This document shows positions 9,959 through 59,627 of a stretch of DNA of 64,000 nt, piece by piece. A program made the position numbers and the translations under genes. The stretch spans positions 62,114,216 through 62,178,215 of the forward strand of contig NC_088171.1 in the NCBI RefSeq assembly GCF_028769735.1. Reading direction: 5' to 3'. Source of the DNA: Zonotrichia leucophrys gambelii (lineage: Eukaryota; Chordata; Aves; Passeriformes; Passerellidae). Each line of letters opens with the position of its first letter. Position 1 is the first letter of the stretch. The notes beneath the pieces are model-generated. The model did no database searches and was not told where the DNA came from. It worked only from the letters and a program-made list of their open reading frames with translations.

Positions 9959-10028
9959 AGAATAGTTCAGGTGGAAGGAACCTGCAATGTCCAACTTGTC
10001 ATCTAGTCCAACTGCCCACCTCTGGACC
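9959..10028 (-). mobile_element. CR1 LINE 3' tail fragment (minus orientation)
   Basis: The inverted CR1 3' terminus is recognisable: a gaatagttcaggtggaagga start and catctagtccaactgccc further on. Only about 70 bp remain. Confidence 0.75.
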
Positions 10029-19257: not shown

Positions 19258-19318
19258 ATTGGAACTTCAAGGTGATCTTGAAGGTCCCTTCCTACCCAGG
19301 CCATTCATGATTCATTCT
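19258..19318 (+). mobile_element. CR1 LINE 3' tail fragment (plus orientation)
   Basis: The terminal CR1 sequence in sense orientation is visible: ggtgatcttgaaggtccctt, then cctacccaggccattcatga. About 60 bp remain, ending in the degenerate 8-bp-type tail. Confidence 0.85.
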
Positions 19319-19321
19319 AAG

Positions 19322-19390
19322 AAGGGGGTGGTTGTTTGTTGTTTGGGTTTGTTTGTCCTGGTTTGTTTGGGTTTGGGATTTTTTGGGTTC
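19322..19390. repeat. G/T-rich low-complexity tract
   Basis: Repeated gtttgtttg and gggttt units following directly on the CR1 tail. It is the only sizeable tract of this type with T/G rather than A/C on the plus strand. Confidence 0.8.
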
Positions 19391-22008
19391 TCCACCCCAC
19401 AACTGCCAAACGCTGTATTTCTCTGCAGACAGCTATGGATGGATGTTATGAATGCACAGATCAGACATGCTTATGTGCAGAGAGAGTAAAGCAACAAATA
19501 AAGTCCACTTAAATTACATGAGGAACTATTATTTTTTGCACACACAGTAGCAACAGGCAAGTTGGATAACCTACAGCAGTGAAGAGGGACTATTTGCGTT
19601 AGTCACTGCTTGGCTGTGGAGGACTGCTCTGAACACAACCAACTGATAAGGAAAACAGACAAGAGACCTTAGGAATTACTGATCCATGCTTATATGTTCC
19701 AGTTGTACTTAGTTAACTTCTCAACCTGCATGGATGCTGATATCCCTGTACAAAATAATTCAACATAATTATATCAGATATCAAAAAGTATAAACAAACA
19801 TTTTTGGCTTAAGTTAATTTAAAAGAAATATTTAAACAGTTTCAGGAATTTAATTAAAGCAGTTTGTTTACACACAGTAGAGAAAGCAATGGTCCTATGC
19901 TATTTTTGAGTATTTTCTTGCTCTCCATCTATGATACAAACTCCTTACAATCCAGATTTAACATAAGCCTTCCTTATACCTGGGTTCATCTTGTAAAGCC
20001 TTGGATTCCTAGGAGACAAAGTACCAGAAACAATGCTAAGGTATGGAATAAGGCACAGCTGCCTTTGAACTACTTCTGTTCTCAGCTCTCCTTTCCATCC
20101 TAAGGACAGGTTATAGAGGAGGACAGAGAGCAATGGCCCTGTAGAACAGCTCAGTAAGAGAGGTCCAGAAGCAGAGCTGCTCATCTCTGGGCATGGAGAG
20201 CTGTTCTAACTGAAGGTGGCTGCTTTATTTCCACACCTGTCTCAGAGTTCTCGGAGAGTTAACTGAGATACATAAATACAAGCAAAATAATTTTTACTGC
20301 TGGTGTAACTCAAATTCACCAACCCCAGCTAATAATATATCTTTTCCCCCCTCACCTGCAGGGATATCTGGAAAACAACCCTACTTGTGAGTATGCAGCT
20401 ATGAAACAGTAAGAGTTTTTCCAAAATATAATCACTTCCCCCAGATCTTTCATCAGGTTTTGTTGCACTATTATTACAGCACTCTGCCACTAATTCTTAT
20501 GTGGGATCCAATGTATTAGTCAAAGTGAAATCACTTGTCTAATAAAAGGTTCTGCAAATAGACTCAACTTCGATTTCAGGTTCCAATTCAGAGTCTTCCC
20601 TGTCTCTTAAAAGCAAACACCAAGAAACACATGCTACAACTCTAACAAATCAGCTTGTAATAGCTACTAGCCATGCTCACTTCTTGCATGCATTCACATA
20701 GCAATACATATTTTTCCTCAGAAATGCAAACTGAATCGCTGTGCAGTTGAATAAATGATGGTTGGGGTAATGGTTCAGTGTGTCCACATCACTGCTATAG
20801 AAAAGTGTCCTTATAAAAAAATTAAGCTAACCAAAGGAAAAACAACAATAACACATTCCAAATTTACTGTGGGTCAGTAACAAAACCTCTAATTACACAA
20901 CTTTAGATCTCAATGCTGAGAAAAAGGTAACCCTGGGAAAACATACTTTAAGCATCTCATTATCATTCAAGTCAAAGTAACAAATAGTATTCTTCTTGAA
21001 AAGGTTTACCTCTTCCTATTACAGACATATCAAAATTAATAACCAAGAAAAAGAGCATTTCAAATCAGCACGGGGGAAGTGGAAAAAACCCCTCAAGCAG
21101 TGATGTAATGATTTCTTTGAAACTCTATTTCAAACTCAAATCCTCAGGATAGTAAGTAAAGATTAACAAAAGAGCACCCAGGCTGTGAACAGTTGCGTGT
21201 CCCTGTCAGGAAAGACAAAGGTGGGAAAGGAAAATGTAGCATCACCATCACTAAGTTACTTGAAGCATATTTTGAGAAGACAAAATAAAGCTGCTCCCTC
21301 TCTCCATCCTGCTACCTGCCATCTGTCCACGAGGCCACAAAGCAAAGCCACATCTTTGGCCAGGGGTGAAGCTGGTAGCAGCTGTGTCACCACAACAGCT
21401 CCAGCAGGGAGCAGGGGAAAGAGAAAGAAATGGGGCAACTCTGTGCTCTCTTCACATGGAAATACTGCACCAAGCAGTGATTCCCAGCTGGAAACCTCGT
21501 TACATAAGCAATATCATTTAGGACATTAGAGGAAGTCAGTTAGAGCCCATTCTCCTCAATCCAAACATACTCCCTGACCATTTTCTTAGAATATGACAAT
21601 GTCATCTGAGCATGTGGCTTCTGAGCAATAGTCACAAGAAATTCAAGATCAGCTCACTGCATCTCAACCACAGCATCAGTAAAGAATCATAACAACAGAG
21701 TGCGCAATACCTGGCTTGTTCTCATTAAATGTCCTTCCTGCAATAATTGTAATATGTTAAGCAGCATTTCACAATAGCTTAACTTAAAAATTTTGCAACA
21801 AGCATGCTTAACTGGTGTCTTTTGTGAAATACAAATGGAAACCACAAAACCAAGAGCATGCACTGCTTGATGTAAAAACTGTGAACTGTTGACTTTAAAA
21901 ACATGTTGCTCAAGAGATATTTTAACACTGCATTATGCCATTAACACTGAAAACCAGTGTATTTCAAATGTGAAGCAAATAATCCCTTGCCTCGTGAGAG
22001 GAAGCCAA
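19391..22008. other. Intronic sequence, nothing recognised
   Basis: Unique sequence. Short open frames near 21.2-21.5 kb have no splice context or known domain. Confidence 0.55.
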
Positions 22009-22604
22009 GAGGGACTTGGGGGTGCTGTGGGATGAAATACTGAATTTCAGCCTACAATGTGCTCTTGCAGCCCAGAAAGCCAATTGTGTCCTGGGCTGCA
22101 TCCAAAGCAGCGTGGCCAGCAGGGTGAGGGAGGGGATTCTGCCCCTCTGCTCTGCTCTGGTGAGAGCCCACCTGCAGGGCTGCATCCAGCTCTGGGGTCC
22201 CAGCACAGGGAGGTCCCTGACCTTTTGGAGCAAGTTTAGAGAAGGCAACAAAGATGATCAGAGGTCTGGAGCACCTCTCCTATGAGGAAAGGCTGAGAGA
22301 GTTGGGGCTATTCAGCCTGGAGAGAAGAAGGCTCCAAAGAGCACTTCCAAAATGTAATGAGGGCTTATAGGAAAGATGGAGACAGACTCTGTAACAGGAC
22401 CTGTTGCAATAGGACACAGGGTAATGGTTTTAAACTAAAGAGGTTGTCTAGAGAGGTGGTGGATGGTCCATCCCTGGAAACACTCAAGGCCAGGCTGGAC
22501 AGGACTCTGATGTAGTTTAAGATGTTCCTGTTCATTGCAGAAGGTGAGACAAGGTGACTTTTAAAGGTCCTTTCCAACCCAGACCATTCTGTGACTCTGT
22601 GATA
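22009..22604 (+). mobile_element. CR1 LINE fragment, ORF2 end plus 3' UTR (plus orientation)
   Basis: Clear CR1 from gggacttgggggtgctgtgg to the terminal block cctttccaacccagaccatt followed by a degenerate ctgtgactctgtgata tail. It is 5'-truncated. The transition near 22440, from 'ggttttaaactaaag' straight to a garbled version of the gaggtggt block, suggests an internal deletion of several tens of bases relative to other CR1 copies. Confidence 0.95.
22016..22335 (+). pseudogene. CR1 ORF2 C-terminal remnant, frameshifted
   Basis: The translation in one frame gives CALAAQKANCVLGCIQSSVA and CSALVRAHLQGCIQLWGP. The matching continuation, [23 protein letters not shown], appears about 60 bp later in another frame. 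This is the C-terminal part of the CR1 endonuclease/reverse transcriptase protein. At least one frameshift near 22200-22260 breaks it. It is antisense to CDKAL1. Confidence 0.9.
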
Positions 22605-25600
22605 GTGAATCCTACAGTTACCACATCCTGAAGCTCCAAGTTTACCATACATTGAATCTATATTAGTTCAGGACTAAATTAAAAGCAAATCTGCTGAGCC
22701 ATAGAGGGAAGGTCAAAACAAAGCCTGTGCAAAACCACATTTGACCTGTTTTCTATAATGCTTGAGTATATATGTGTTACATCCATGTATACATAAACAG
22801 TCAAATTTACAGGTTATAAATGCAATTACAAGCTACAGGACCAAAAGAGGCCACATAAATTTCATATGTATAAAAGCAAAAGAACCACAACTTCCACTTC
22901 TTGTGTAAAAGTTCATCTATTTCAAAAATCCTTCTATTTTTGGTCTTTTCCTTTGAACAGCTTAAATCTTTTTGCTGGTTCAGTCCAGCACAGTTCACAT
23001 TACCAAGATAGCAAATGTGGCCAACACTGGCTAAACAAGAGAGCTCCTACTAATAGCAAGAAAAACAATATTTTGCTAATATGAAAAAAAAATAAATACC
23101 TGAAAGACTAATTTCAAGTTCAGATATGTATTTTAAAAGCAGTATTTAAAGCTAAGAGCAATTTGAAGTAAAAATCACATTTCCTGCAGCTTTCCTTGGA
23201 TAAGAAGTTTTACAGTCTGGATTCAGGATTCTAATTAAACATGGTTTTCCTTTCTGAAAGAATGTGAAAGAAAATTCTTCATTGTATTTAGGATATATTC
23301 ATCATTACATATTTTCTGTCTCTAAAGAACATTTTTCACTCATCTTCATTTTTTGGAGTTGTAGGTATCAATTTGACAGCTCCACAAAGTAAATGTTCCT
23401 ATTTAATGACTGGTACAAGGAAAAGCATACAAACTAGACATCTATTATGGAAATGGGCTACATTAAAAAAGCACAGGGAGAGACAAAACAAAAACTGGAA
23501 ACGTATGAAGTATTTAGGGGGAAAAAAAAATCCATGCTACCCCACTGGATTGGGGTAATCACAGATTGCTTCTACAATGAGTTTTGCTGCATTTTAGACA
23601 ATTTTATTTAACACTGTACTTTTGTAAAAAAAGAGCTTCTGCCTCTTGACTACTGAGTTTCCCTTGAGGTTATGCTAATAAAATATAATAGATCCAAGCA
23701 AAACAATAGGTTTTTTCCTACTTGGAGTAAACACATATAAATTTTCTTGGTGAATATTTGTGTTATGTTGGTAGCTGGAGCCACTAACAAGCATCAGTCT
23801 CCATTGTGCTTGGAGCTGTAAAACCAATACATGAAAAAAGTTGACTGTTTATCCTGTTAAAAGTAGTTACGAGATATTATCTCTTAGCAAAGTTTGAAAT
23901 TCAAGCACATACTTGGAATGAAACAATTCTGTGGTCAACTGTGTCTTGGTGTTAGCCTGTGTTTCTGCCTTTTATTTCATTGAAAGCTAAAAAGAAAACT
24001 TTACAAGTAAAGAAAAAAATTTGGATAAAACATTAAATTCAAGAGGAACAGTTGTCTGATCATGTCCCTCCCAAGAGTGGTGCACCAAGGGTCAAGTCAG
24101 CAGCTGAGGTGTACAATGCCAAACATGAACTGCTGTACTGCACTGGTAGTATCCCAAATTGCCTTGACTAAATATGCCACAATAAAACCTTAACAGACTT
24201 AGGAATTACAGTGGAACTTAGAGTAAAAAACAAGAGCTTTGTTGAATACAGACAAACAAAATCACCAACATTATTTTTGCTCTTTGTGGGTTAGCATCTA
24301 ACAACCATGAGAAAAATGCTTTCAGAAGTATGAGAGAAAATGGTTTTGATTCTCAAGCTTACCTGAACAAGCAAGCATTCTCTATTTTAGGACAAACACC
24401 CATAAAGCATTAGTAGATAATCTTTTGAATCAAAAACAAATAAAAACATACTTGTCAGTAAGAACAAGTTTAGATCACGTTGATTTTTGCATTAGTCCTG
24501 CTACAGCAAGTTTCTGCATGTTTTCCTATGTTCCCTCCCTAGGAAAAGTCAGGCCTGCTAGGACAACAGCCAACCTGCAGCTAATTAGATTAATAGTCAA
24601 AGCTACCAACCACCTGCTTCCAGCACTCAAATCATTAACCTTTTCTGCTCAATTCATCTATCTGAAATAGTAAAACAAAACACCTGTTAAGATAGGGGGA
24701 CACATAATATACCAAACATTAATTCTGCAAAGCTCATATAACCCATTTAAAGTACAGCTAACAATTAGTATTGCTGAAGAACCCTTTCATCATTCTGCTG
24801 TATTTCACATATTCTGGTCTACTAGTTAAAAGTTCAGAAGAGCAAGGGGAAAAAGGAAAACAAACAAAGGAAATGAAATATTCCGTTCTTTTTCACTTCT
24901 TATGACTGTACTTTCTGTATGCAAGCAAACCATCCCAAGCAGAGCTCTGTCCTCATCCTGTCCCACGTTATTCCAATGGACATTAATACTACATTCTCTC
25001 TCAGTAATGCTATTGCTTATTTGAGGCAAATGTAAAATCTCTTAGTATCTCCTGCCCTTTTTAGTGCTGGAGAAAGTAATTTGGTTACCTCTCAATAAGA
25101 GAAAGAGACAAGAAATTCCCCAACAGATGGGAGATGAATGTCACAGGGCAGAAGCAGAAAGGATTTTGACTGCAGATCCCCAAATTAATTGCAACACAAA
25201 GTTCAGCTTCAGTAGTCCACTACTGGGCACAGTCTGCTTGAATAAGTCATAAATATTGTTCCAAGGACAAGAAAACACACACAGCCTACTGTTTGAGGTA
25301 ATAAAAAAGCACACTACCATGTCTCAGATTGCTGCTGTTTCCAGCAGTTGCCCGCTATCTCACCACTGCTTGAATCACAAGCTCCTCAGGAGTTGTCACC
25401 AGCTCTCTGCTTTGGCAAACTCCACAGGGGCATTTTCTACCTGAGGGCATGCTGACTTACAAACTGTTAACGTTCTGATTCCATTCACATTCCTCAAATT
25501 CACACACACAGTGGTGGATTTTATTCTTTCGCACACCACAACCGAAATGAGACTTTTGAAGTGTTTATTTTGTAGCCTATTTTTTGAACAGTGAACAGAA

Positions 25601-26116
25601 AACCCTCCAATCCAGCAAGGACTAACTAGAGGTTAAGGTGCTAATCTGAAGTGTGAGTTAAATCAAGGAAGGAACTTGGTCACAAGAAATCAATGTCCCC
25701 ATCCTTTTAAAACAGACAAGACATTTAAAAGAGATTTCAACATGTTTTTATGTACATGCTCATAATAGGAAACCAAGCACAGTTTTGCTCAAATGTCTCC
25801 AATCCCTCAAAAAGCTTCTTCTTTAAAGCCCTTGATTAAGCAACAAAACAAACCCGAAACTCCTGACCCAAAACAGTGCCTGACAGTTTCTGCTGTATCT
25901 GTGCCTGGCCTGGGCAAAGAGGGGGTCACCAGCCTTAAGAGCCCAAGAGAACATCCCATCCCCAAGGCAAGCATAGGGCAGAACAGCATGAGAAACACTA
26001 AGAAAGCCCAATTCTTTCCTTTTGCTAATTTCATTAACTCTGCCAGGAGAGGTTTCCTAAAATTATACATTTTGACCAAGTCTGAGAGGAGGGGGAAGAG
26101 CTGTTCTGGTTTTTAA
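22605..26116. other. Intronic sequence, nothing recognised
   Basis: AT-rich unique sequence between two CR1 copies. No exon, RNA gene or further transposon was identified. Confidence 0.55.
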
Positions 26117-26336
26117 CTAGAGATGGATATTAGTAAAAGGTTCTTCACTCAGGGTGGCTGGGCACTGGAACAGGCTCCCCAGGGCAGTGGTCACAGCACC
26201 AAGCCTGGCAGAGTTCAAGAAGCCTTTGGACAAAGCTCTCAGACACATGGTGTGACTCTTGGTGTGGCCTGTGCAGGCCAGGACTTGATGATCCTTATGG
26301 GTCCATTCAAGCTCTGGATCTTCTACAGTTCTATGA
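26117..26336 (+). mobile_element. CR1 LINE 3' fragment (plus orientation)
   Basis: Follows a familiar avian CR1 3' end: ggttcttcactcagggtggc, actggaacaggctccccagg, then gatgatccttatgggtccat, ending ttctacagttctatga. About 220 bp, 5'-truncated. The subfamily differs from the copy at 22009-22604. Confidence 0.93.
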
Positions 26337-29300
26337 CACCTGTGTCCCCATTTTTGGTTGACAAGGAGAAAGGTGAAAGCATTAGTCCATGAACTATCAG
26401 GAGAGCTATACTTTTTAAATCAGAAGTCTTCCTTGCTTACCCACATCACTGAAGTGTAATGGTTGATTGCATTTGTTTACAAAGGAAAGTGTTTCTTGTA
26501 TGTTTAGCAATGAACTTAACTGATTTTCAATGTCTGTAAACACTGCCTGTAAAGCACCAGGGCTCCTGGAGCCTAAATAGCTGGGGACCTGTAACTACAG
26601 CCTCAACAAAAAGTTCAAATACAGATATATGAAGTCAGGAAATAGAGCTTCAACTCTATTGTCCGGGCCAAGTCTCACATCCTGGCCATATTTTCTTCTA
26701 CAAAATTGCAATCAAACATACATTTGTCCTCAGTTATCTGGCTCAAGACATAAAGAGTATCTAAGGCTAATCAGTCCACTGAAGCATCTGAGGCTTAATC
26801 AGCACTGCAGTAACACCTCAAAGCATCAATATCATGTCATACTTAAAGGAGTCCCAAATGTTTTCCTATCAGAATAGAAAAGATTTCTAGAATCACATTT
26901 AGAAGTTGATTTCAACAGGTTCTGTTCCTGTACTTTTTTAAAAACCTTTTAAAATATTAAACTAAAGTGCACGCAAGTTTATAAGCCAGGCTTTTGCAAA
27001 TCTCTGCAAAATGTGGCCGTGTAACACATGCATTCACAAACAGTCCATAATGCTTTTATCTTCTATATACTATGCAATGGAAAGCACTCAGTTCTATATG
27101 GTGTGCTTTTTCTGTGTTTTATAGGATCACATCAACCAGCTTTTAACATTTTTTTTACCTGAGTGCAAGGAAAAGAACATACTCGAATGCAGCTAAAAAT
27201 CTTCCACAAAAAACATCATTTAAATCACAGAATTCTTCATCAACAGCTGTGTCTTCCATCAGCTTAAGGCACTAGAAGCATGGTTGGCAATATTCAGTAA
27301 GTGTAAAAAGAAGAAAAAAATACTTACTAGATAGGTAAGGTTTTAAATAAAGACTTCAGTTTAACAATATTTTTGTTCTAAGCCTATCAAATCCTTCTGC
27401 AGCATTTGGAAGCCACAGAGCATTTGGAGTCAGATATGATCCTTGGTAAAGCTTAATCAAATATATAAATGTGAAACTGGCATTGCTTAAGCTGAGGAAG
27501 GTTAACTAGTACAATATACAATTTAAAAAATCATTGTTTTGTAATATAGATGGGCACCGCTGAACAAAAAACCCTCTCAAATGCTAAAGTAAAAAATCCA
27601 TCTTGAAATTTTTGCCACGGAAACCCAGAAGCTAAATTAAAAAAAAAAAAAAATCTGGTGAACAAAAGAGAAATTTTCAGTGTTTTCAAATAATTAATTT
27701 GTACACATTACATCAAATATTAGAGCACTTCCTAAAAATATTATTTCTTTACAAAACAGAATGAGGTCTAAAACTAATTTAAAACTTAACTTTGGTTAAT
27801 GGTGTGCGATTGCTGAGATCTTAATAGATCTCTTACATCTGTAAACATAAAAATATTGTGCCTAAATCTATTCTAATAAAGGTTTTTATGAAGCAACTTA
27901 AGCAGTCACATAAGCTCCTCAGGTTGTTCTCAGAAAAGAAATATGATTTTAAATTCTAGCTAATTGATTTACAGCCTCCACTCCAAACCAAGTAACTCCT
28001 ATTGGCTGGGGAAGGAGTTCCTCTCACTGTCAATATGGCATGAATCTTGAATACAAGCACTTTGCCAATCTGTAGGTGTGTGAGCCTGTCATCCTGGCAA
28101 AGGCAAGGTTTTCACCAACATGATGTAGGCTAGTTTAGAGAGTCTGAGCAAGGAGTATTATTGGCAACAGTCTTAGGGGAAAAAAATCGAGTGTCTAACT
28201 TCCTCCCACCCAATGAAGTTTGTTTTGCAGGCATTTTTACTTCAGAGAACCCAGGCCTTCCTCAGATTTCTTCAGTACAAGTGGGGAACTGAAGTACCCC
28301 TACCTCAATTCTCAGTACTGCCCTGGTACCTTAGGCATTCCAACACAAACACCCCAACTCATGGCAACACCCTATTTCTGTAAATGCAACAAACAGCCAG
28401 GCTATGACACTCAGCTCAGAAACTTCCACCTGGGGAAAGTGATCTTCTCATGCTAACAGGATGTATAAAATAAAGAGCTTTGAAATACTTATGTTTCCTC
28501 TCCTGGAAGTACATCACAGCTTAGATTGTATTGCATGAACAGTATAAACAACTCTAAATCACAGTCTGCTTCTACACTGGAAATGTATTACGAACTGCAA
28601 AAGGACTAACGCTGCATTAAACAAAGTGATAACCCTGCATAGTGTGCAATTTTTCATTTTGCTCCATTTCAAAATGCATCATATAAATTACATTCATAAA
28701 TGTTGGGGAAAAAGAAAACAAAAACCAACAAAAAACCTTCCTCCAGGGTTATTTTCATTTGCAAAGATTTCAAGCAGCAGAAAATTATTCTTATCTCTGA
28801 ACAAGTTTTTGTATTTCTTAAATAACCTCCTTCTGTACTTAACACCAACACAGTTGCATTTGGTTTACAGAAACCCTGTAGCATCCAAAGGCAGTCATGC
28901 CTTTTACTCCTCAATTTAATCCACTGAGAGCTTTAAACAACTCGCAATGTCTACAATCACAGTCCTCTTAAACAAACGTTTCCACAAATTCTACGGGTTT
29001 TGATGCTCCTTCTAGCATGAAAGTGAGATCCCCCACGCAGTGTTTATTCATGAATTGGTGAAAACTGTAGCAAGGACAGAACTGGAAGCCACATGGTGCT
29101 ACTTCAGTGCTAAAAGCCCTCGCATCTCTGTCACAACTCATAGCTATCAGAGAGAAAAAGTTTGAACACACACTGGAGCGTGCCTTAAAGTGAATGCAGC
29201 AACAGATATATCAGAGAATGTGTGTTAATGCTACATGCTCATTGTATATAGTAACAAAGATGATTATTTATAGTGGTCAGGCTTATTCTATAGCATGAGA

Positions 29301-29866
29301 CAAGCCATGGACACCTCAACAGCATAGCCACATCTTTCCTGCCAGACAACATCATTCTGGCTGTTTTGCTAAGCAAGCCACCAAATTCCTCTCCACAATA
29401 CTTCAACCAGCAGGAGAACTCCTTAAGGACAAGCCAAAGTCCCCAAACACATGAGTAACTTATACCAGCACTCAGGAAAGGATTAAGCAAGGGAAAAGAC
29501 AGCTAGCTAGAAACACTCAAAAGCTTCTGAATCTTCAGAGGGCATCAGGAAAACTGGGTTATGTATCTGAGATGTAACAGTCAAGAGTATCAGAGCATAT
29601 AGAAATTAATGGAGCATGAAAGTGAAGAGCAAAATAGCTTTATTTTAAAGGAAGCAAGCTCCTCTAGCACACACTCTTGAGCTTAATTCTCTTCATCAAT
29701 CTTACCAGATTTACTGTGGTTTACACAGTAAATCTATTTAGTAACTTACTTCCTGAGTGTTTATTCTTGCTATTACCAACAACTAAGTTTTAAGAAAACT
29801 ACTTTTACTTATTTTGACTAAAATCAATGACAGCAGAAAATGTTACCTGATAACCTTCTGCAAATG

Positions 29867-29912
29867 AGAAAAAAACCAAACAAACAAACAAACCAACCAC
29901 AAACACAATAAG
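29867..29912. repeat. (CAAA)n microsatellite-like tract
   Basis: About seven units of caaa/ccaa after an A run. Confidence 0.85.
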
Positions 29913-30020
29913 CAGAAGCACATAAATGAACCACAAAAAAACTAACCAATACAAATAAATAGTGACATCTCTCTGGAAGAAATTTAATGATATTTTACTT
30001 ACTTTTTGTTATTTATACTT

Positions 30021-30097
30021 ATTTATAATATGTTACATATGTTACATATTTATAATATGTTATTGTTGTTTTTATATGTGTTTATAAAACACATATA
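30021..30097. repeat. AT-rich block with direct repeat and hairpin
   Basis: A 15-bp direct repeat (atttataatatgtta) lies at 30021-30035 and 30048-30062, with gttacat twice between. It is followed by an inverted repeat: 30073-30083 pairs perfectly with 30087-30097 (11 bp) around a 3-base loop. Confidence 0.8.
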
Positions 30098-31661
30098 TAC
30101 ATATACATTTAACTCATCCAAATTGGTCCCACTGGCAGATGATCAAGTCCAAAACAAAGATATCTTACTGAAACATTATCAGCAAAAAAAATGTGACTGA
30201 CTTGTAAATAAACAGACAATTTTTAAGTATTATTTCATTTTAAGGCAAAATAAAGTCAATTTCAAAAAATAAAACTTTCCAAAACCCATTAATTTCCTGC
30301 AATGCCCAGGAACTACTCTATTAAAGCACAAGAGGTAGATCCATCACTAATCAAAACATAAGCCTTAATTTTATTTTTTTTAACTCCACCCGCTTAATTA
30401 TAGTGGGAATTCTTTATTGTTATTGCCTAACTCTACTTTAATCTTAAAATTAACCAAGTGAGAATAAAATCTGCCCAAGAAACTCTCTCAATTCCCATCC
30501 ATAAGCTCCAATGCCTTCCATACCACTACTCTGGTTCAGCAAATTCAACTTTATTGATACTGAAGAACAGGAGACTACTCCTAAGAGCAACAAGAAAAAA
30601 AAAAAAAAAACAAGCATAAAGATTATACTGTCAGTTATCTTGTATCAGCTGTATGCACATCTGCAAAGGTTCAGAGAGTCTAGGAATGGTTTTGGTTCTT
30701 TTTTAGAAGAAAATCAGACGAGAAAAAAGTTGTACCTACAGGACTTGATGGGTTCTGGCACATTCTTTGGCCCATGTTACTAGTGAGTGATCAGCTTTTC
30801 ACAGCCATTCTCTAACCACCAGTGGGAACACACACCACTGGTTTGGATCAGTGCATTTTAAAGTCATATATGCAAGCAATGTAGGAACTATTGCAGTGGA
30901 CACAGAATACATAAATACTTTTCTCAATAACATGCATAATACAATGTAACACTTTGAAGCTGATTTTCTTTTTAAGAAGAATTTTACAGGGCTGGGTATT
31001 AATTTTTCTGCGCCAAGCATGTTTGCTTTGACAACACACACGCACACTACATGTTTATTTTGTTAGTCAATTGAGAAAAACAAAGATTTCCATAGTTACC
31101 AACAAGCTGCTGTGACAGGATATAATGGCAGTTCATTTTCCTTCACCCAAACTTCATGCATTGCATTTTTGCTGTAACAAATTAAGAACTATTTGGGAGA
31201 AGTTGTGTTCTTTAGAGAGACAATGTGCTTCCCTTGTGTTTAATGAGAAATTAAAAATGCTTATGAAAAATCAGAAACAACTACAGAAGATGTCATTCTC
31301 CATGGCTGGGAACTGCCAGGATCTGAGACTAGAGCATGAATGCTACAGGAAAAGAACAAGTATAGGGAGATGTAAGGATAAAAAAGAATAAATCCAGGCT
31401 GCAAGTAACATCAGGCTCATGAACAGAGCAGCAACAGAAACATGTTCTTCAAAGAAATATTTTTGGTCACTTGCTTTCAGTTAGGCCCTCTTTCTTAACC
31501 AACTCTATTCTCCTGGCTGGGACACGCACCATACCACATCATTTCTGGCACAGGATTAGTAAAGTAGAAGGATGGCCACAGCTGAGCTGGAAAGTATCTT
31601 GTCATCAGTTCTGTTGGCCAACACACACTAACTGCTGGAAGTATTCTGGGAATAGTTTGCC

Positions 31662-31690
31662 TTTTTTTTTTCCTTTTTTTTTTTTTTTTT
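31662..31690. repeat. Interrupted poly-T tract
   Basis: Two T runs of about 10 and 17 separated by CC. No recognisable retrotransposon body is attached. Confidence 0.85.
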
Positions 31691-32290
31691 GGCAACAGAG
31701 AAGAAAAGGCCTAAGCCATCCTGGTCACCAAGTGTAACACCAGCAGCCAAGAAAGTAAAGCACTCTCAGGGGTGGAGGAAATTTCTGCTGTGCCACCTAC
31801 AGCAGGCAAGTGGTTTCTGTTCCAGGTTACAGCCCTGAAAGCCTGTTAGTAACTCCAGCATTGCAAGCAGGTAGCTTATATCCAGCTTCTCTCTCTTCTC
31901 TTTCCATTCCCAAGAACTGTGTGTTTCAAACCAAAATGGATTTCAACAGCCAGTCCATCCCCAGAGCACCACACTAAATAAATGGCTGCACAAATAGCCA
32001 GAACTGTTTACTAAAGGTAAAATGTACAAGACACACACCACAATATTTCTTTATACTGGGCAGTGACAGCTGTATGTGTACAGGTTTTCTAGTTATTCTC
32101 ACCATAACTACACTTCTGCAGAAATTGGAGGCAAAAATCACTACCATGTCATTTTGTTTGACATCAATGGAATGGTACTGAGTAATAAAATATTCTTCAC
32201 AAGGCTTCTATTATAAGCTAATGAGCTAATCTTTCAAGAAAACACACAGTGAAATAGCTGGTTTTAAGTATATACCAGATACCCTTTACA

Positions 32291-32560
32291 AAGAATCACA
32301 GAATTGGTTGGAAATTGTTTCTGGACCATCCCCTTGTCCAAGCCCCTACCAAGGCAGGGTAACCAGAGCAGGTGACACAGGAACACATCCAGGTGGTTTT
32401 GAAAGTCTCCAGAGAGGGAGACTCCATGACCTCCTTGGGCAGCCTGTTCCAGTGCTCTGCCGCCCTCAACACGAAGAACTTCTTTCTCATGTTAAGGTGC
32501 TTCTTGTCATTTAATTTATGGCCATTGCTGCACACAACTGAAAAGCAGGTCCCAGTTAGG
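32291..32560 (-). mobile_element. CR1 LINE 3' fragment (minus orientation)
   Basis: Starts with an intact-looking inverted tail, aagaatcacagaattggttg. It continues through gggagactccatgacctcct and gggcagcctgttccagtgct to the words for the ORF2 end. It is 5'-truncated. It lies in the same orientation as CDKAL1, about 380 bp downstream of the exon. Confidence 0.94.
32370..32545 (-). pseudogene. CR1 ORF2 C-terminal tail remnant
   Basis: The minus-strand translation reads NGHKLNDKKHLNMRKKFFVL and AEHWNRLPKEVMESPSLETF, the end of the CR1 ORF2 protein. Only this C-terminal stretch is present; the catalytic reverse-transcriptase part is missing through 5' truncation. Confidence 0.88.
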
Positions 32561-32938
32561 CCATATTTAGGTAGATGAAAAATGAAACAACCTAACATTT
32601 TATATATTAAAAAGCAAAAAACAAAACCAAAAGCACAGTCAACTCTTCAGAAGACTATTACAACATTGCCTTGAAAAGTGATATAAAAGTCCCTATCTAA
32701 ATGGGTCAAGAGTTCTCCTAAATAAGTGTAATGATAATCACTTGCAAGTTATTGCTATTTTTTAAAAATCCATTCTACCTTACAAACCCATTCTAGAGAA
32801 TTCATCATTGTAACATAAACTCAGCACATTTATTCCTCTAGAACACAAAATTACTTCTAGATTGAAAACACAGAGCTTTAAGACATGCAATACTCACTGA
32901 TAGTTAAAAATCAAAATATTTGTAAGGAAACAACTTAC
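32561..32938. other. Intronic sequence between CR1 and exon
   Basis: AT-rich unique sequence immediately downstream of the CDKAL1 donor. No motif was recognised beyond the donor itself. Confidence 0.6.
32931..32938 (-). other. CDKAL1: 5' splice site of the CDKAL1 exon
   Basis: The exon ends in CAATCAA and is followed on the minus strand by gtaagttg, which matches the vertebrate donor consensus GTAAGT perfectly. The intron begins in phase 2, splitting a lysine codon, as in the human gene. Confidence 0.93.
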
Positions 32939-33023
32939 TTGATTGAGTTTCTGAAGTGGTCTTCAGCAGGATTTTTTACTGTACAACTGTTCAGCAACCA
33001 TAAATCTGCTTCATCAGAGTTAT
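32939..33023 (-). CDS. CDKAL1: CDKAL1 internal coding exon (threonylcarbamoyladenosine tRNA methylthiotransferase)
   Basis: On the minus strand this 85-bp segment encodes 27 whole codons plus split codons at both ends, including the stretches [20 protein letters not shown] and NSI. As I recall human CDKAL1, this matches about residues 96-124 and the human exon is also 85 bp. The boundaries agree: a phase-1 intron before and a phase-2 intron after. CDKAL1 is a radical-SAM enzyme, tail-anchored in the ER membrane, that methylthiolates t6A37 of lysine tRNA(UUU). The segment lies in the N-terminal methylthiotransferase (UPF0004) domain. Its TGT codon at 32983-32985 corresponds to human Cys109, one of three cysteines expected to bind the auxiliary 4Fe-4S cluster. 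The first residues (D-N-S-D-E) differ from the human ones, while the rest is nearly identical. No stop or frameshift is present. The radical-SAM and TRAM domains lie in exons outside the window. Exon number (probably 5) is inference. Confidence 0.97.
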
Positions 33024-33060
33024 CTACAAAACAGAAAAAAAACAACTTGCGTTAAGAATT
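33024..33060 (-). other. CDKAL1: 3' splice site of the CDKAL1 exon
   Basis: Read on the minus strand, the exon is preceded by a pyrimidine-rich run containing eight consecutive T and ending in TTTTGTAG. A cttaac motif at 33051-33056 offers a branch-point adenosine about 29 nt upstream of the exon, a normal distance. The tract and AG are seen directly; the branch point is inferred from position and consensus. Confidence 0.9.
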
Positions 33061-36000
33061 ATTTAACCTGTCAACTCCTAACTTATATAATATTTAAAAA
33101 AAAAACCAACTGAGCCATTAATAATAAGTTGGCTATTTGCAAGATTACTTTATATTCAATTACATTCTTGGAAGGGGTTTATTGTTTTTCTTTGTTTTGT
33201 GTTTTAGAATAAAAAGAGGCACATGAGCATTTCCACTGTAATTTCATTTAATTTTTTTTGCCAATGGGGAACGAGTTCTTATCTCATTTACCAGCTGAGA
33301 TGCCACTAGATTGCACATCACAGAAAACAAAGTTAAAAAAAATGGTCACAACTACCAGAAAAGTCTTGCCTAGACAAAGGCAAAATTAGGTGGTCAACAA
33401 AAGCAGGTTTCACTAAGAAAATAAAATCCCTGCTTCATCTCCACTGTGAATTAATACTACAAAAGAAACAAATCATAATTCATAACATGTAAAGCTCTAC
33501 CAAAGAGAAAAGTCAATGTAGCGGGTTTGGAAAGAAACAGACATATTTCTAGTTTTGGTTATATCTTAGTTATAGTATAATTATAGCTCAGCAATTTTCA
33601 GACAAAAGATATTCAAGCAACCAATATCTGTTTCCATTCAGATAAGAATACTTTTTTTTTCAGGATCCAAACCTTTCTGTATGTTCAGAGCCTATTGATA
33701 TCTAAATTCATTAACTGAACTGAATCCCAGAATTATCTGCAGAAGCACATATATGAACTGTAATCCTGTAAAACATGGCCTATACTACACAATTACTAGC
33801 ATAGTCATTATCCTTGTGAAGTTAGAGTTTCTTTTTTTGAACAAAAGAATAATCTATCTCAAATAGTTTAGTGCTTTAGCATTCATCAGAATAGCTTGTA
33901 TCAGTTTGGATAAGAAAATTCATGTCACTTGCTACTATTCAGTACATGGAGCAGTGAAGTATTGACTGATGTATCTTTAAATAACATAAGCCAGTGAGCA
34001 ATGAACACAGGTAAAACTTAATTTTTAGGATGCCTTACTTGAACTGATGTCCTGCTAAAGCAGGAGGAAGCCTGCCATGACTTAGGCATATTTATACATG
34101 CACCCATCATGAATGTATCTATACAGGCATGAATATCCTTTTTCTCCATGCACACACACTTATGACAAAATGCTAAAATTGAAAAAGCTTTCTGTCTCAT
34201 GACATTTTCTTCAAAGAAATCATCGTTTACAATTAATTATCAGTCGCTTAACCTAGGAAGCAGGTAAATTGAAAATAATACATAAAAGGCAACTAATGCT
34301 AAATAAGAGAAAACATTCAGGGAGAGTTCTAATCATTGTTGACCAAGATTACACTATTAATTTGGCTAAAACACAACTTCCTTTCACAACAGGGAAAGAC
34401 CACAAAACAGTCACCTAAGTAACATTCAAACCTTTAGCTACTTAAAACAAATATCTGACCCTGTCAGGTTGGGAAAGGGCACTCAGTTTTTCAGCCTACA
34501 TAGAAGTCAAAATAAAAATGGAACAACACAAAGAACCTCTCCTGCATGTAAACTACATTTTTAGACTAATGAGCAGACCCCTATACCATTACAAATATAA
34601 TCAGAGGTTAAAATAATTGATCAGGAATTATGTACAGACAAGGAAAGAAACAGTTTCAATGTCAGAAAAAGAGTGATCTCTTGGCCTAGTCAGATGTACT
34701 AGGTATGAAAACAAACACATTTTAAAAGTAGTTTTCCAATCACACAGCCAAACCCTTGCATTTCTTATTCTTTTCAGCAGCATAAAATGTTTATAAATTC
34801 AGCCCCACACCCATAACACACCCACCTGAGAATTAGGGGTGGGACACACACACACACTAAATAGCAAGAGGCCAACATTTAAGTGAGACATTACATTTAA
34901 CAGACAACAGTTGCAGTAGCACTCATCCACCACTGTAAAGCACAACCATTTTCGAGAGATGCCTTTATTCAGAGGAGAGAGACAGAGAACACCAGTTCTG
35001 GGCTTGGTCTCAGCTCCTCCTTGTGCCATGGTTTCCAGGTGTGCAGGAAGAGACAACACCACGGCAATGCTTCTCCCCTAAAGCCAAAATCAACCATCTC
35101 TTCAAAACAGCCTTGGAAAAAGTAACACATTTAGGTTTAGAAAGCCCTTACATAGTAACCCAACAGGACTCATTTCATACAGCAGTTGGTTTCCAGGCTA
35201 TTAATATATTGACTCCTTGACTGAGGGACAACTGCAACACTTTATATATATATCACACATATTAAAAAGTCTTCCAAATACATATAAATTCATTCCTTAA
35301 CAGGTTTCAGCCTCTGCAGAACAGAAGATAAAAAGCAAAGGCTTTTACAGAATAAAATCTCCTCAGCAGTTTTGGGAAAAGGAGTCTCATTCATGTACAT
35401 ATCTAAAAATCATTTATGGAACATAAAAGTGCAGCTGAGGTTTGTCCTCCTCTTAAAACAACAGTAGGGTTTTATCATATTCAGTTGTTCTACTTCTGCC
35501 TTTATTTTTAAATCTTTTTTTTCTAATTAATTCTCATGATCTCTCATATGAATATATGTACATACAAGTTTTGATTATGCATATATATAAACATACAGAC
35601 ACACACTCATGAGTTATATTCATTCATTAAGTGTCCATATCACAACTCTTCAAAATGATAGCTGATTTTTCTTGGTACTTTACTGCCCTATTCATACTTA
35701 AAATAATTGCATGCACTGGTGTAAACTCACCACAGTCTACTGCATTTTTTCAATAAAATTTCAGTTAAAAAGGAAAAATATTGCCAACGGGGTCCTTTTG
35801 TATCAGGTTGCAGGAAGATGTGAACATTTGCAACATTGTGGGAATAACTTGTCAGCGGTCACATTTAGCTTTGCAAGGCCTTGATGGATGTGTGGAAACA
35901 AACATGGACCAAAAGAGGAGACTGGGCTTGGCATGTATAAACAACATCTTCTGGCTTCATAATTACTAAATATTAAGCAACACTGGGGTAATAATCCTTT

Positions 36001-39000
36001 ATTCAGGGCATGGAAACTGGAGCAACTGGCTACCTATATATATATATATATATATATATGCATAGGTATATGCATGTGTAGATGTGTGTATATATATATA
36101 TGTGTATGTACACCTATAAGTGTTCTGACATGAGTAGGTGCTACTGTTCAGCTATGTGCTCAAATAAAGAGTCAAAAAACTCTGACAAATAAGCTCAGGC
36201 TTCTAAACACATGCCTAGAGGGGCAGGGGCAGACAGCCCTGAGGATTCCCTGTTTATACTCCAGGCAGACAGATGAAGAGTTTAGGTCTGGATGGGAAGC
36301 CCCACATGAATGTGGTGCTGCACCCACTGCATCCATGCACCCTTCCTTGGAAGCTCTCCACCTGCCACCTTCTCCAACTCCATAGGTGACGTTTTTGGGA
36401 AACCTCCAGCATTTCAGTGAAGAACAGAGGCCTGTGTTTGGGAGCTCACACAGATCTGAGCGAACAGGACGACTTAAAATTGACAGAAGGTTTTCCATCA
36501 AGTCATGGAGACCAACAGGCAAAACTGAAGCAAGAACCATAAGTACAGTGAACATCAGTTACAGCAGTGAACATGGTATAGGTGCATATATCCTGCAACA
36601 ATCTTCTCTATTTTTGCCATATATTCAGCCTAATGATACTTTTTTCATTATGATATTTTGATGCCAATATTTATTTTTATGAGCTACTTAAACAGTTTCC
36701 TCTTTGATAAGATATTTTTAGAAAGAAAAAAGGAAGATATGTCAAATCAGCTTTGTATTACATGCTCAAAAACACAACTCAAAACCATGGACTTCTTGCA
36801 TTGTGACATCTTTTCCATAAAAAAAGGCTACACTGGAAGTAAACCACAAAGTCTCTCATACTCTCTGAAAAACAACATAGAGTACAAAGGAACCTAAAGG
36901 TCATGGAAACTTCTGAGCACTTAAGTTAATTGGGAAACTCTGGAAAACATGAATTGGCTGCATTATGCAATACTAAGATGATAAAATGGTGAGAGTCTGT
37001 AACATTAGTATATCTACAGAGGAAAATAATATTTACAATTCTTTTCTAACTAGCAGTGTCAGTTTTCTTATCATTTCAGAAATCATAAATCAGCAGAATT
37101 TCTTAAGACTGTAGTAATACTATCAGCTGAAAATAAACAACTGACTTGGGTTTGCCTGGTCTCTTGACTTTTAGTCTTTCTTCTTTCAATTTTTTCCAAA
37201 ACTTTGTTTTCTTCCAAGCCCCCCCAAACCACATCTCCTTGAAAATCAAAACACTCACAAAGCAAAAAAGTAGAAGAAACAGTTAGTAAAGGCCTAAAAG
37301 AAAAGCCTTTCTTTACTTTCTTCAGCACATCACTCCTCTCTCTGCACTGAAATCTCTACCAGATTTGCTCAGCATAGTTTGCTTAAAAAAACATGACTCA
37401 TAACTATTATGACATACTTTTAAATACTGTACATCAATCTGAGAAGTCCAATCTGAAAGCAGATCTTTCTCTATAATCACTGAAGGCTCTTCCAGGGTGT
37501 TTCCCTCCAGCTGTCCTTATCCTGTTCCTAACCACTCTGCGAGTCTTCCTTCTCACCTTTTCTGATTTTGTTTCTTCTAACTCTCTTACACAACAAATAT
37601 ACGTCCAGTTTCTCTGTTTCCATGTGCTGTATTCTAGCGTCTCTTCCCATTTATGGACCTCTCCATTAAAGCTTTGTCCTGTGTGTTCTTCCTTCCAAAA
37701 CAGCTCTGCTCCCTCCCTTGATACCCTGGTTGCCACTTCATGCTCTGGAATAGCATGAAACGTAGTAGATCCAGTAACATCCAAGGTATCTGGAATGTGT
37801 TCCTGCAACTGTACCCCATGGGAATCATCTGCCCCCAAAAGACACAAATATCTAAGCATGAGGACACCTCACAGCCAGTTACAGAAGTCATGGAGCATCC
37901 TGACTGGAACAAAGTTGCCAAACTAATTCTTTTCTTTCGACATCCCTGTGTCACAGAAACCCACTGTCACTCAAATTAGGTTCCTGAAATTAGGCGCTGG
38001 TTAATTTAATGATTTCTTGGACCACCGGGCATTAAGAGACCTCAACAAGTATTGGGAAAGAATCTCCTCATAAATACGACTTCAGAAATGCTGTGACTCA
38101 TCAGTGCAGGAGGAAGGTACATCTTCCTCTGGGGACAGGGAGTTTAGTTGTTTGTTTGCAGACAATAGGCTTTGCTTGGAAGAAGAAAAAAACTCAATAA
38201 AGTTGAGAGTGACAAGAAAAAGTTTGGTGTTTTATTTGTGTGCCTTTCCTCGGCACACAAAATTCTTGGCTACCATTTGCTAGTTCCCAATATTGTATCA
38301 GATATAGTTAGCTATCAACTTTGATGTAACTTGTCCTACAGATTCCAAGCAAACAAGCTCTTTCCGTGTGTCTGCACCCCTGACAGCAACTACAAATCAA
38401 AACCACAAGTTATCATGAGTTTCCAGATGGTACTTGTTTGGAATCTCAGGGACACATTATCAGTTCCCACCTCTGAAGACGTACCATGCATTTGCCAATG
38501 ATACAAAACACTCAAAGGCACGCTGAAAATACCAACTTTGCAGATTGCAAATGTCTTTCAAAACAATCCCACTCATGCCTTATCAACACTATCAGGATGT
38601 AAAATGTAAAAGGATCGGCTTGGTTGCAACATGACTTCTGTTTTCTCATTAAACTTCTGAGATACTCTGGACATAACAAGTTACTTCATTCACAATTAAT
38701 GAAATACAACTATTTGGTTCACCCTGCATATATGTTATTTAAAGTTCCAAAAGGAAGGCCAGGCTGCTTATCAGGAATGCAGACAAGCCTTCATGAAAAA
38801 ATAATTTCTCCCATCATGCCTCTTGCCATGATTTAAACTACAAATATGCAAATTTGCCATTTTCATTCTCCATTAACATTTTCATTACCAAGCTAATAGC
38901 GTAAGTAGCCTTTCTTGGGTTTTCTGGTATTTTTTCTGGTATATTTCTGAGTATTTTTTGGAAATTTTCTTGAGCAGGCAGATATCTTAACAGCAGCTAC

Positions 39001-42000
39001 TGCTGGACTATAAACAGATTTTATAAAGCTTCCAGATCAGGATGCTGTGCCTGTTATCAAAGGATATTTCTCAGTGTCCAGCACCAAAACAGAGGCGCAC
39101 AGGGACTTGTCCACTGAACACATCAAATAAGTAGGAACTGAGCACATTTAAACATGCAAGATGTAGCAGATTACAATTGAGTAATTCACTACTGGATTGA
39201 AAATATGAATGTTAAATCATTGCCTTTCCTCATTTCAGTACAACAGACAAATAATTCAATTTTATGTACTCATGCCTACTTTCAGGACTGAAAGTTTTCT
39301 AAAAAAATATTAGTTTATTTCCAGTCACCTTTGAAAATCCATTTTGAAAAAAGAAGCACATACACCTCTCTTTTCAGCTGTTTAGGGGGTATCATGCAGT
39401 TACTGGGACAAACTACTATCAGTTGATGTCCATTCAATCTGTTCATGACCTGGAACTTTGCCTTACCACTCTTTCCCAAAAACAAATTCCTCCAAGATAT
39501 ATTTAGCTTGCTAAAGTCTACAAAGGCCAGCAGAACAGCTTATGGCTTCTGCCACCATCACTAAAACTAAAGAGTGACTGTGAGATCACTGAGAATATGA
39601 AACTGGAACTTGAAAAATTACAATAGGTGAACACCTGAACTAACATTAATTTTTTATAAATAGTGCAGACAAACCAATCTGTATTTCAGAGCATATCCAT
39701 TAAAGAATACTTCAGGCCTGGTATGGAGGAACTGAACACTAGACAACACAGAAGAAAAAGTACATAAAAGAATAAATTTAGCTTCAAAATATCAACAATG
39801 ATAAACTTTACTTCCCACTTCCACTCTGCAACCATCAGTAGAACTTACAAGAGTAATCCCAATTTATATTGGGATTTTGAAGTGAGTAATCTGTTCTCTA
39901 AGTACTTTTCATCTCTGCTCCAGACACAGCACAGGCTGCAGTCTGGGTCTGAGGTGATCCTTGTGAGCCACCTTTTTCTCCCAGTTTGTACACTTGTGAC
40001 TTGTGTCTACACTTCAGACTTGTGTCAGACCAGCAGGACATCCCAGCTACACAGCTTGCTGCAGCCCAGGGTCTGCTCTGCAGCACCCACACACACAGAG
40101 CTGTGTACGGAGGCTTCAGCCCATCCACCCTCAGCAACACCTCAGCTCCACAAAGCAAAGAACAGGAGAGTTAAATCTACTAGAAAGGTTTATCTTTTAG
40201 CAATGTAAAAAAAATCCAATTAGGTTATAACTTGTATTTTCATTCCTTCTGCGATGTCCTGCTGATTTTTCTGCCTTTGCACACAGCACAGACAACATGA
40301 ATTGACAAATTACTTTGGTATTTTTGTTCATTTTACTTTAATTCACTAGATTTTCCATGCATTAAGGCACCTGAGGGTAGCTTGAAGTTGCAAAATGATT
40401 TATGTTTAAAAATGCTAAACCTAGAAATGTTTTTGAAAAACAGCAGGTTTCCTTTTGGAACTCCAACACTCTAAAACTGCAGTACTTGTAAGACATTTCA
40501 ATAATTCCCCCACATGAATGAGAACTTTACCAAGCCCATAGCCATTGAACTCATGCTTGTTCCAATCAAGAAAGGGACTGACCATTTCTACATCTTACCT
40601 GCTTGCTGTCTTTGTTGATCATGGAAAAAAACTGTATACTTCAGTCCAGCTCTGGGTACAGCTCAGCTTCCTGTGCCATAATCTGCTGCATTTTAGTCTG
40701 CATTCCACACTTGTCTTGTCAAACAGCTCCCAGAAATACACTTAAAAGGAAAGGCACCCCTCTTACAAGTAAGTGACCATGGCCATGTTCCAAAGGAAGC
40801 TTATTCCAACATGACATGACCTTAATGAGCTACTCTTTTCTCATGGCTCTTTTTTGATATAAAATAGTCAAAGCTTACTCTGCACATGGTACTATATACC
40901 AAGGGTGGAAAATATAGGCTCCATTTTTAGCTCATTCCTTCAAAATAAAGACTTCACTACTTTGAGAAAAGTGGATCATGCAACTATTTCTAGAACAAAA
41001 CAAGACCTTAAAACAAGAGAAGATAAATCTCACGGCTAGCTAAGAGGTGTGTTGGCAGGAAGCCTAAGCCTTGCCAAGGGCTGTTCAGCACAATAAGACC
41101 TGATATTAAGGAACCCAAATTAACCTGGGCAGCAGCAGATGCAGGCACCAGAGCATGGTGCTCTAAAGTGGGCATTTCACCCTGCTCTTGAGCACAGACA
41201 TATTTTTGAGGCATTCCAAGGGTCAACTGCTCCATTCACTTCACTGAAGACTTAATGATCAGTGTGAATAATTTCAATATGCAAAGCAGTGATGAGTGAT
41301 TTATCAGTCTTTTGGGAAAAGTCCCATTACATTAGGAACAAGGTCAAGTAGCCTGTTTCAGCCAGGCTATGCTACAACAACACACAAATAACTCCAACTC
41401 ATTCTGATGATTAATGCGGATAGAATTTGTTTTGTTGACAGAATTTGGAAAAATCCCAGAAACTCCTCCTCCTTTGAGTCTTAAGCCGGCTTGATATTCC
41501 AGAAATAGCAGGCACAGTACGACTCAGTGCTTTTCTGTCCCTACATACAGCTTCATACGCAAAACATGAGTTATTCAAATGAGCAAATACAGACTGATTG
41601 CTTCTGTCTTAGTCACTCAAAATTCAAAGCCAGCCATGAACAAAACATCTTGCACAACACCGTGCAACCGAAGTTTCAAAGCATGCTGCAAATATTAACT
41701 GATTTACCTTCAGCAGCCACATATTAAATATGCACCCTTCCCTACACCAATTCTTTTCATCTTATAAATGTAGACAAGTAGTTTCAGAATTTCCATAACT
41801 CGACCAAGCCACACAGGATGCCTATGCAAACAAGCCAAGATCCTAGCCAAGTTGTCCCTGCCTTCAGGCCTGTCCCTGAACACAAAGCCATTGCCTAGAT
41901 TCATATGCACTATTGCAGTCTACATCCTTTAGAGGCCAGATAGGTGATATAAATTTTTGACAAGTTTAAAGGCAATCATAAAACCCAACTTTTCAGTAAT

Positions 42001-45000
42001 TTGGGTTGCACAGCAAATGAACAGAAAAGACTGAACAGTAGAACAAATTAACTCCTTTCTATGGGACAAGGTTAAAAGAAAAATTAAAATCCTTCCTCCC
42101 CCCTCCCCTCAAAAAACTAACTCAAATAGATATAATAGCTCTAACTCCCCATGTGTGCTCAAACACAGCTCTTGCAGATGTGCTACCAGCTGTCTCAGAA
42201 CATCTATTGAAGTCTAACCACGGCCTTAGAAGGATGACAGCTGATGGGTGAGCTCCAAGAGAATCTCCAGATTTCACAGGACTCACTGAAAAACAACTGC
42301 ATTCTCATTTTGACACAACACTTCAGAAATCTCCACTTGCTTTATCTGTAGTCTCAGAATTAGCCTGACCTGGTAAAAATTGTTAAAGAGGATTCAGTTG
42401 CAGATCGGAGTTTCTAAAAAATGGCTGAAATGTAAGTGAAACTGCTGATGTTGAGATTGGCAAGACACAAACTGCCAGTCTGAAAAGTCATCTAAACTAT
42501 TGATTTGAAAATATCACATACTGTGAAGTAAAAAACACATGCTTCAGGTAAAAAGCTACTGCAGTCAAGCATAAGCAGGTATTTCATATGATGATAGCAA
42601 AGGCATGGGTAAATGAAAAATGAAAAGCCTATGTTTTCCACTATACATTATATGATTCCATATGAATTTGTTGTAAACAGCAATAAGTAGTTCAGAATCA
42701 AGAAGGATTGACTGGAACCTGCCCCAGGAATGTAATTTTAATCTCTTTGAGGTGTAACATTATGACAAATCTCACATATATAAATGCTTCTATCTACAGA
42801 GCTAATGGAATGTTAATGGCTCTTCCTCACCATGTCTACAGGATAGAACAAGGAAAATATACATTGATGCTTATTTAGTCCCATCATACACACAAGTACA
42901 ACCTGTTGGGCTAAGGAACAGAAAAGAGAAACCAAGGGCACTCATAAAATGCAGTTGCATCACTTGAATTACCTACCCAGAGGAGCCTCTTGCACTTCTA
43001 GGCCCTGTAAACCACACGTAAATCCAGCAACATGAAACTCAAAGCAGAGAAGTAGAAGATTCTCAAGCATAACACAATCCCCAAGCAAATGGGGAAAAAA
43101 TATCTTTGCTTTATTTCCAGCATAATATAAAATGGATCTTGGGTAATTAACATTATTTCATTTATTATTTAAGGCATAAAGTGAGCAGCTTTACTCCACA
43201 AATTTCTTACTTTTTCAGTACATCTAATTCTGTACAAGTTGGCCCATGGCAGTGAACTTTCACATTTCCACAACTTTCTAATCTCCATTCATTTTCACAA
43301 CAGCCAGGATTAGAACTTTGCTATAGTCTGCAAAAGAAACCTAAATTTTATTCCTGTATCTGTTTCACGATCTTTTTCCTCCAAGTTCCATCTGCATTAA
43401 GTTGTACCTAGAAGCCATTTATTGATTTCAAATGCCTTGCTTCCACTTATTTCTCCTGATACCTAATGCCACAGGGAATATAGATTTAGGTTTTAGCTAT
43501 CACTTTTAAAAGAGTTAAAATTATAAGCTATTTGAGCCAGATATGTCTAAACACTTATTAAATTGTAGCTTCCGGCTACTTATTGACTTTTTCAGAACTA
43601 CCTTCACACCTCATCTATTTTCTACTTTATCAGTTTTCTGAAAAGAAGGAGATATGGGCTTAAGGTATCATACCCAGTAGCCAGATAAGCCTCTGCTGAG
43701 GTTAATTCCCAACCATCATCCCCAGTTCAGACTATCAGCAAAATTTAGTGCTTGTGAAAACTCCAGACTAAGCACAGCAGAAATGAAAGCTCACTCTTTA
43801 CACACACAACCGGTAAATGCAGCACAGCAATCAGCAGCACAAGCTGCTTCACAAAATCCCACCAACAAGTTAGGAAAAAGCTTCATCTGGAAACATTTAG
43901 GACAAAGTAGCAGATCTACTTCTATGCCCAGCAGAGTAAGGAAGCCTGTTCATGGCAGAGGAGTAAAGATGAGCTGGGACAGAAAAGCAAAGACAGCATG
44001 GGCAGGTGTGCAAAGGTGTATCCCAGCCCCTTTCTCCATGCCCTGACTCATGCAGAGCAGACACACCAGCCCATGCAGCTGCTACAGAGCTATGCCTGGA
44101 GAGGCTGAATAGCTCTGTACCAACGCTGAGATACCCATTTTAGCCTCACACATTATTTCTGTACAGTGTCTCCTGTCAATCCTGAGTGCAGGTTTGGTAC
44201 CCTTGTTAGAGGCAGTTTTGTTAAATTACCATCATTTGCACAAAAAAAGCACCAGAAAATATTCTTCCAGTACAGTATTGCATGCAATAAGACAAGCCTA
44301 TTTTGAAACTTTCAGCAGCACTTACAAGTGCTGAAGTTAAAACATGCCAGTTTTGCGTAGGAAAATTTAGCTTTATGGCCTCAGAGTGCTTTCATCAAGC
44401 ACAAACCAGTTCGAACATTAGTTTGAGACATGTATTATTTGATGTAACAGCAGCTCCCAAAAATAAAAAGAACATTTTGACAAACAAGAGAAGGTGGGTG
44501 AGGATCCATTTTCTCATCTTATTTGGCAGCCACATCTCAGGATTTCAAGGACTGTCACAAGGAGTGATGCTGGTGTATTACAGCAGGCAGAGCTGCACTT
44601 TAAATGTGCACAGTGCTGTCTAGCAGTTCTCAATTTCCTTCAAGGAAAAGGCAGAAGATTTGCTGGAAGAGCTCCATAGGTCAGAAGGAGTCAATTTTTT
44701 TGGGTTGTTACCTTCTTCCTACCCCAGGCTCCACACTGGGAGTATCTTCCTTTGGCTGGACTTACCTATGTCTTTCCTACTTTGAAGGCAACGTAAAGAG
44801 CAACAACACAAAACCTACATTTCATTACACAGCTCAAGGTATTGAAAAAGCCATTTTGATCTATCTCCTTTCTGAACTTCCTTACTTTTAAGACTTCAAG
44901 GCCCATAGTTATCCACAATTTATGTTTTGTGATGTGAGAGGGATCTTTATACAAAGTTCTCTTTTTTGTTTGTCAGTGACAGGAGTTTAATCTGGTGTCT

Positions 45001-59610: not shown

Positions 59611-59627
59611 TAAAAAAAAAAAAAAAA
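59611..59627. repeat. Poly-A tract
   Basis: About 15 consecutive A, with no retrotransposed body attached. Confidence 0.8.

Follow-up and report, generated by a model that had tools for sequence, protein, structure and literature searches.

The 85-nt feature on the minus strand at positions 33023..32939 of the window (the whole 64,000-nt stretch of Zonotrichia leucophrys gambelii DNA analyzed here) is, with near certainty, the third coding exon of CDKAL1, a gene that is intact in this songbird. It covers residues 94 (part) to 122 (part), including Cys107, and corresponds to exon 5 of the mouse gene; the exon is an ordinary, conserved and intact part of a known gene whose biology is already known. 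A preliminary description had placed an 85-bp exon with GT-AG ends at 32939-33023, and these borders proved correct to the base, with a full match in the gene model that we built from the bird's own genome.

Read on the minus strand, the upstream intron ends in TTTTTTTTCTGTTTTGTAG, the exon runs from ATAACTCTG to CAATCAA, and the downstream intron opens with GTAAGTTG, or in short form AG / ATAACTCTGATGAAGC...CAATCAA / GTAAGT. The acceptor side (33024..33083, minus strand) has the AG at 33024-33025, a long pyrimidine-rich tract and a branch-point-like TTAAC word, and the 5′ splice site directly 3′ of the exon (32931..32938, minus strand) contains an exact GTAAGT; branch point, tract and donor were all judged by eye, using what we take to be the donor and branch-point consensus sequences. 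The flanking introns are in phase 1 on entry and phase 2 on exit, and the 85 nt consist of 27 whole codons plus two split-codon bases at each end, with one frame open and stops in the other two. With G as the last base of exon 2 and also as the first base of exon 4, the split codons are GAT (Asp) and AAG (Lys), both as anticipated in the preliminary description. We found no sign of a structured RNA in the exon (z -0.95), as 30 of 200 shuffles folded equally well or better.

Similarity to CDKAL1 is strong and confined to this exon within the window. The translated search against vertebrate CDKAL1 that the preliminary description had called for, run as tblastn with proteins of three birds (chicken, Calonectris borealis and Colius striatus) and the shark Stegostoma tigrinum, returned the exon at 62.8-63.5 bits with GT-AG ends, and the next match had an E-value of at least 1.7. 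The exon's translation was identical at 28 of 29 positions to CDKAL1 of the three birds tested and at 25 of 29 to that of human, for which the isoform compared was identical overall at 447 of 561 aligned residues. A human CDKAL1 sequence likewise found the exon (E 8e-12, 25/29; runner-up E 0.31), and neither it nor the four fetched proteins revealed further CDKAL1 exons above noise in the window. While the open piece is short, at 27 whole codons, and might for that reason be suspected of being a chance open frame, the exon scored at least 62.8 bits against a maximum of 27.3 bits for the same four-protein search over 40 shuffled windows (drawn from first-order Markov base transitions, which keep dinucleotide content on average only), and the probability of such a coincidence is vanishingly small. 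Among NCBIfam models, the 29-residue peptide matched best to TIGR01578 (30.8 bits), a t6A methylthiotransferase model that human CDKAL1 also meets, with lower scores for TIGR00089 (20.2), bacterial MtaB (14.8) and NF010916, a MiaB model (13.7); the MiaB equivalog TIGR01574 was absent from its matches. Taken alone, the peptide scored 24.6 bits against Pfam UPF0004, below the cut-off of 27, and a PDB sequence search with it gave no match at E up to 10.

For comparison across species, we collected 206 CDKAL1-type proteins, all cluster representatives, from the best 120 of 6402 matches and 86 new entries among the best 120 of 865. The exon peptide was present with 24-28 of 29 identities in 205 of these, the exception being a 547-aa UniRef entry of Macaca nemestrina without it (3/29), which is perhaps an annotation or isoform matter. 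The exact 29-residue peptide of the window occurred in none of the 206. The form beginning DNSAEADLW, one residue apart from the window's DNSDEADLW, was found in 59, and all eight such entries with visible identifiers are birds by name; residue 97 is thus Asp in the window versus Ala in these 59 (birds where named), and this position is variable, with Ser in Colius and Met in Rhinopomastus. The commonest form (97/206), shared by human and mouse, begins ENASDADLW and differs from the window at four positions, and these four substitutions relative to the window all lie at the exon's N-terminal end, in agreement with the preliminary description's remark that the N-terminal residues differ from human.

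Within the bird's own genome (1.12 Gb in 3789 contigs, with the window at C3:62114216-62178215), chicken CDKAL1 aligned to 13 minus-strand places on contig C3, from 62.211 to 61.836 Mb with protein order kept, and weakly elsewhere, on C21 and C19 (E 1.89 and 2.04). Five of the 13 raw matches, that of exon 3 included, contained one stop codon where the alignment overruns the exon into the intron, and a 14th, short exon was located in stretches fetched for a gap in the gene. The resulting model has 14 collinear minus-strand coding exons with GT-AG ends at 13 of 13 introns, and the joined exons give an open frame of 582 amino acids plus stop that is identical to chicken at 535 of 582 residues. 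Junctions were picked from genomic DNA with the chicken protein as guide, by a joining script with hand-set anchors that used GT donors (GC penalized) and AG acceptors and scored agreement with that protein, so residues beside the junctions lean towards chicken. Coding exon 3 of this model has the same coordinates as the feature at 32939..33023. Exon 2 falls at window-equivalent positions 93336-93448 and exon 4 at -19818 to -19722, giving introns of 60,312 nt before and 52,660 nt after exon 3. Since exons 2 and 4 lie outside the window and exon 3 within it, the whole 64 kb is inside CDKAL1: the intron separating coding exons 2 and 3 contributes its final 30,977 nt, at positions 33024..64000 (minus strand), and the one separating coding exons 3 and 4 its opening 32,938 nt, at positions 1..32938 (minus strand). 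The strand and the intron context that had been proposed for all 64 kb were therefore borne out, and the flanking exons, whose absence from the scaffold had been named as a possible objection, are present and collinear on C3. Ranked by bit score, the closest proteins to the joined sequence were those of Polioptila caerulea (567/582 identical), Sylvietta virens (565), Acrocephalus arundinaceus (564) and Cisticola juncidis (563), all of which we take to be oscine songbirds, with Colius striatus (550) and parrots next; compared with the first two, the window's exon has Asp97 in place of their Ala97. Protein identity by itself would thus also point to a songbird.

The same genome search bears on whether the exon could be a stray copy or a pseudogene piece of CDKAL1 and not a working exon, which we consider extremely improbable. 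With all 17 candidates scored and 15 matches at an E-value of 10 or below, the parts of CDKAL1 were each found once, in order and on one contig; the exon was the sole match in the genome for the core at residues 98-115, and its splice sites and frame are intact. An origin from CDK5RAP1, the mitochondrial MiaB-type paralogue, is an idea that deserves next to no credence. The two genes belong to the same superfamily, and all three CDK5RAP1 proteins tried aligned weakly at the exon's position (E 0.26-1.4), yet the exon peptide had only 6-11 of 29 identities in each of 120 CDK5RAP1 proteins (the best 120 of 7995), as opposed to 24-28 in 205 of the 206 CDKAL1 proteins, and the CDK5RAP1 exons lie on a different contig, C21, with 84.8-100% identity to songbird CDK5RAP1 protein. 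On these low identities and its own exons on C21, CDK5RAP1 was ruled out as the source; the better match to it that would have told against the preliminary description did not occur, and CDKAL1 had been named correctly. Over its full length, the joined protein was identical at 567 of 582 positions to the best CDKAL1, versus 138 of 560 to the best-scoring of the 120 CDK5RAP1 proteins, and the whole protein scored 232.3 bits against the MiaB model TIGR01574, below its cut-off of 355.3.

The domain content of the gene model is that of CDKAL1 as well. The 582-aa protein matched Pfam UPF0004 (63-144), Radical_SAM (206-379) and TRAM (431-490), all above cut-offs, and reached 514.6 bits with TIGR01578 (cut-off 314.7), the MtaB family of archaeal/eukaryotic type, which ranked first among NCBIfam models for the exon peptide and for the whole protein alike. 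It was above the cut-off of TIGR00089 (MiaB/RimO subfamily) and below those for MiaB, RimO and bacterial MtaB. Unlike TIGR01578, which ends at residue 490 of 582, the bird protein continues into a C-terminal tail with a hydrophobic end visible by eye; a C-terminal hydrophobic anchor is, we assume, a feature of CDKAL1. Three N-terminal cysteines, Cys71, Cys107 and Cys136, are encoded by exons 2, 3 and 4, respectively, and the radical-SAM CX3CX2C motif is at Cys212/216/219. Human CDKAL1 matched 13 distinct PDB sequences, RimO and MiaB foremost, and in its alignment to RimO (4jc0) and MiaB (7mjz) their cysteine stands opposite that of the exon. According to section 3.5 of PMC5372739, MiaB binds one cluster on CX3CX2C and a second on three N-terminal cysteines, and the human counterpart homologous to MtaB is CDKAL1. 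By analogy, Cys107 would be the second of three cysteines holding an auxiliary [4Fe-4S] cluster, consistent with the placing of the second cluster-binding cysteine in this exon by the preliminary description, which we share on sequence grounds. Chicken CDKAL1 modeled with AlphaFold on an alignment of 12 rows reached a mean pLDDT of 50.6, and this model was not used.

Correspondence with mammalian exon numbering comes from a mouse Cdkal1 knockout in which, as the accessible part of PMC13144697 describes, exon 5 was loxP-flanked and a guide RNA was aimed at exon 5. The first guide printed there fits the 3′ end of the bird exon, matching on the other strand its last 18 bases and the first two of the intron with one mismatch of 20; the mismatch is a synonymous TTT/TTC difference, and 0.03 matches would be expected by chance at three or fewer mismatches. 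As the mouse protein continues Lys-Lys-Ala, the T after AAG should be noncoding and intronic, which would make the 3′ junction the same, and the guide match together with this junction equates bird coding exon 3 with mouse exon 5. Because its 85 nt are not divisible by three, losing the exon would shift the frame, and this would fit the choice of this exon for floxing in the knockout mice. We found no paper pairing CDKAL1 'exon 5' with '85 bp', and the available portion of a goose paper (PMC11340016) has nothing on CDKAL1 exon 3. In the reagent table of PMC13144697, within the part available, sgCdkal1 #2 is printed identical to sgControl #1, which looks like a copying slip.

Beyond the window, 16.4 kb upstream of the start codon of CDKAL1 and in the same orientation, C3:62227100-62227288 contains an E2F-family DNA-binding exon, probably part of E2F3; E2F3 presumably adjoins CDKAL1 in the human genome, and we would expect SOX4 on the other side of CDKAL1. 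Two reviews (PMC9002814, PMC6906185), in the parts available, describe enhancers, or SNPs, in CDKAL1 introns that act on SOX4, and a table in the accessible part of PMC10888615 places gestational-diabetes SNPs in CDKAL1 intron 5. By position, window positions 1-32938 would be the start of the bird equivalent of mammalian intron 5. By mammalian analogy, the partial introns of the window may bear SOX4 enhancers; that a songbird regulatory element lies in them, such as the small ATGCAAAT cluster at 56756-56886, seems to us very unlikely. At 56756-56912, three ATGCAAAT octamers occur within about 130 bp, and a 51-nt tandem near-duplication with 84% identity accounts for two of these. The octamer was not enriched across the window (7 found, 6.53 expected), and a promoter and terminator scan of 56700-57000, of a design meant for bacteria, gave nothing beyond chance. 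The window contained no Rfam family at gathering scores and no tRNA genes, and Pfam found nothing above cut-off in the 9 scanned of its 28 long open frames, so that a gene nested in the introns may still exist.

The introns also hold several stretches that resemble repetitive elements. A minus-strand open frame at 32289-32646, some 0.3 kb downstream from the exon, resembles the final part of a CR1 reverse transcriptase and had no Pfam match above cut-off; after it comes a tail repeat of ATTCTRTG type that has one mismatch. A second minus-strand frame (47394-47963), also with CR1-like wording and no Pfam match above cut-off, may be CR1 debris; we presume that both frames can be read as CR1-like. 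Other possible CR1-like debris, at 22251-22601 and 52827-53464, includes an inverted 84-nt pair (22251-22334 and 53381-53464, 74%) and a tail-like repeat at 22586. The window matched doubled ATTCTRTG, which we take to be the tail of CR1 elements, at two places, each with a single mismatch; a count of two was reached in 0 of 100 shuffles, and these two matches fit bird DNA.

Taken together, the exon settles which gene and strand the window belongs to and that its remainder is intron of that gene, and anything else observed there should be treated as intronic unless shown otherwise. As read from exon joining in DNA, the minus-strand transcript would be spliced so that exon 3 supplies residues 94-122 with Cys107; by homology, Cys71, Cys107 and Cys136 would be the ligands of the auxiliary [4Fe-4S] cluster in a radical-SAM methylthiotransferase, and the predicted enzyme would turn t6A37 into ms2t6A37 in tRNA-Lys(UUU). 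This tRNA is the CDKAL1 substrate given in the available text of PMC13144697, and a table in the accessible part of PMC5372739 gives a wider tRNA set. For the family, human variants in CDKAL1 introns are tied to diabetes in the available portion of PMC10888615, and the CDKAL1 enzyme, according to that of PMC13144697, bears on the translation of lysine codons.
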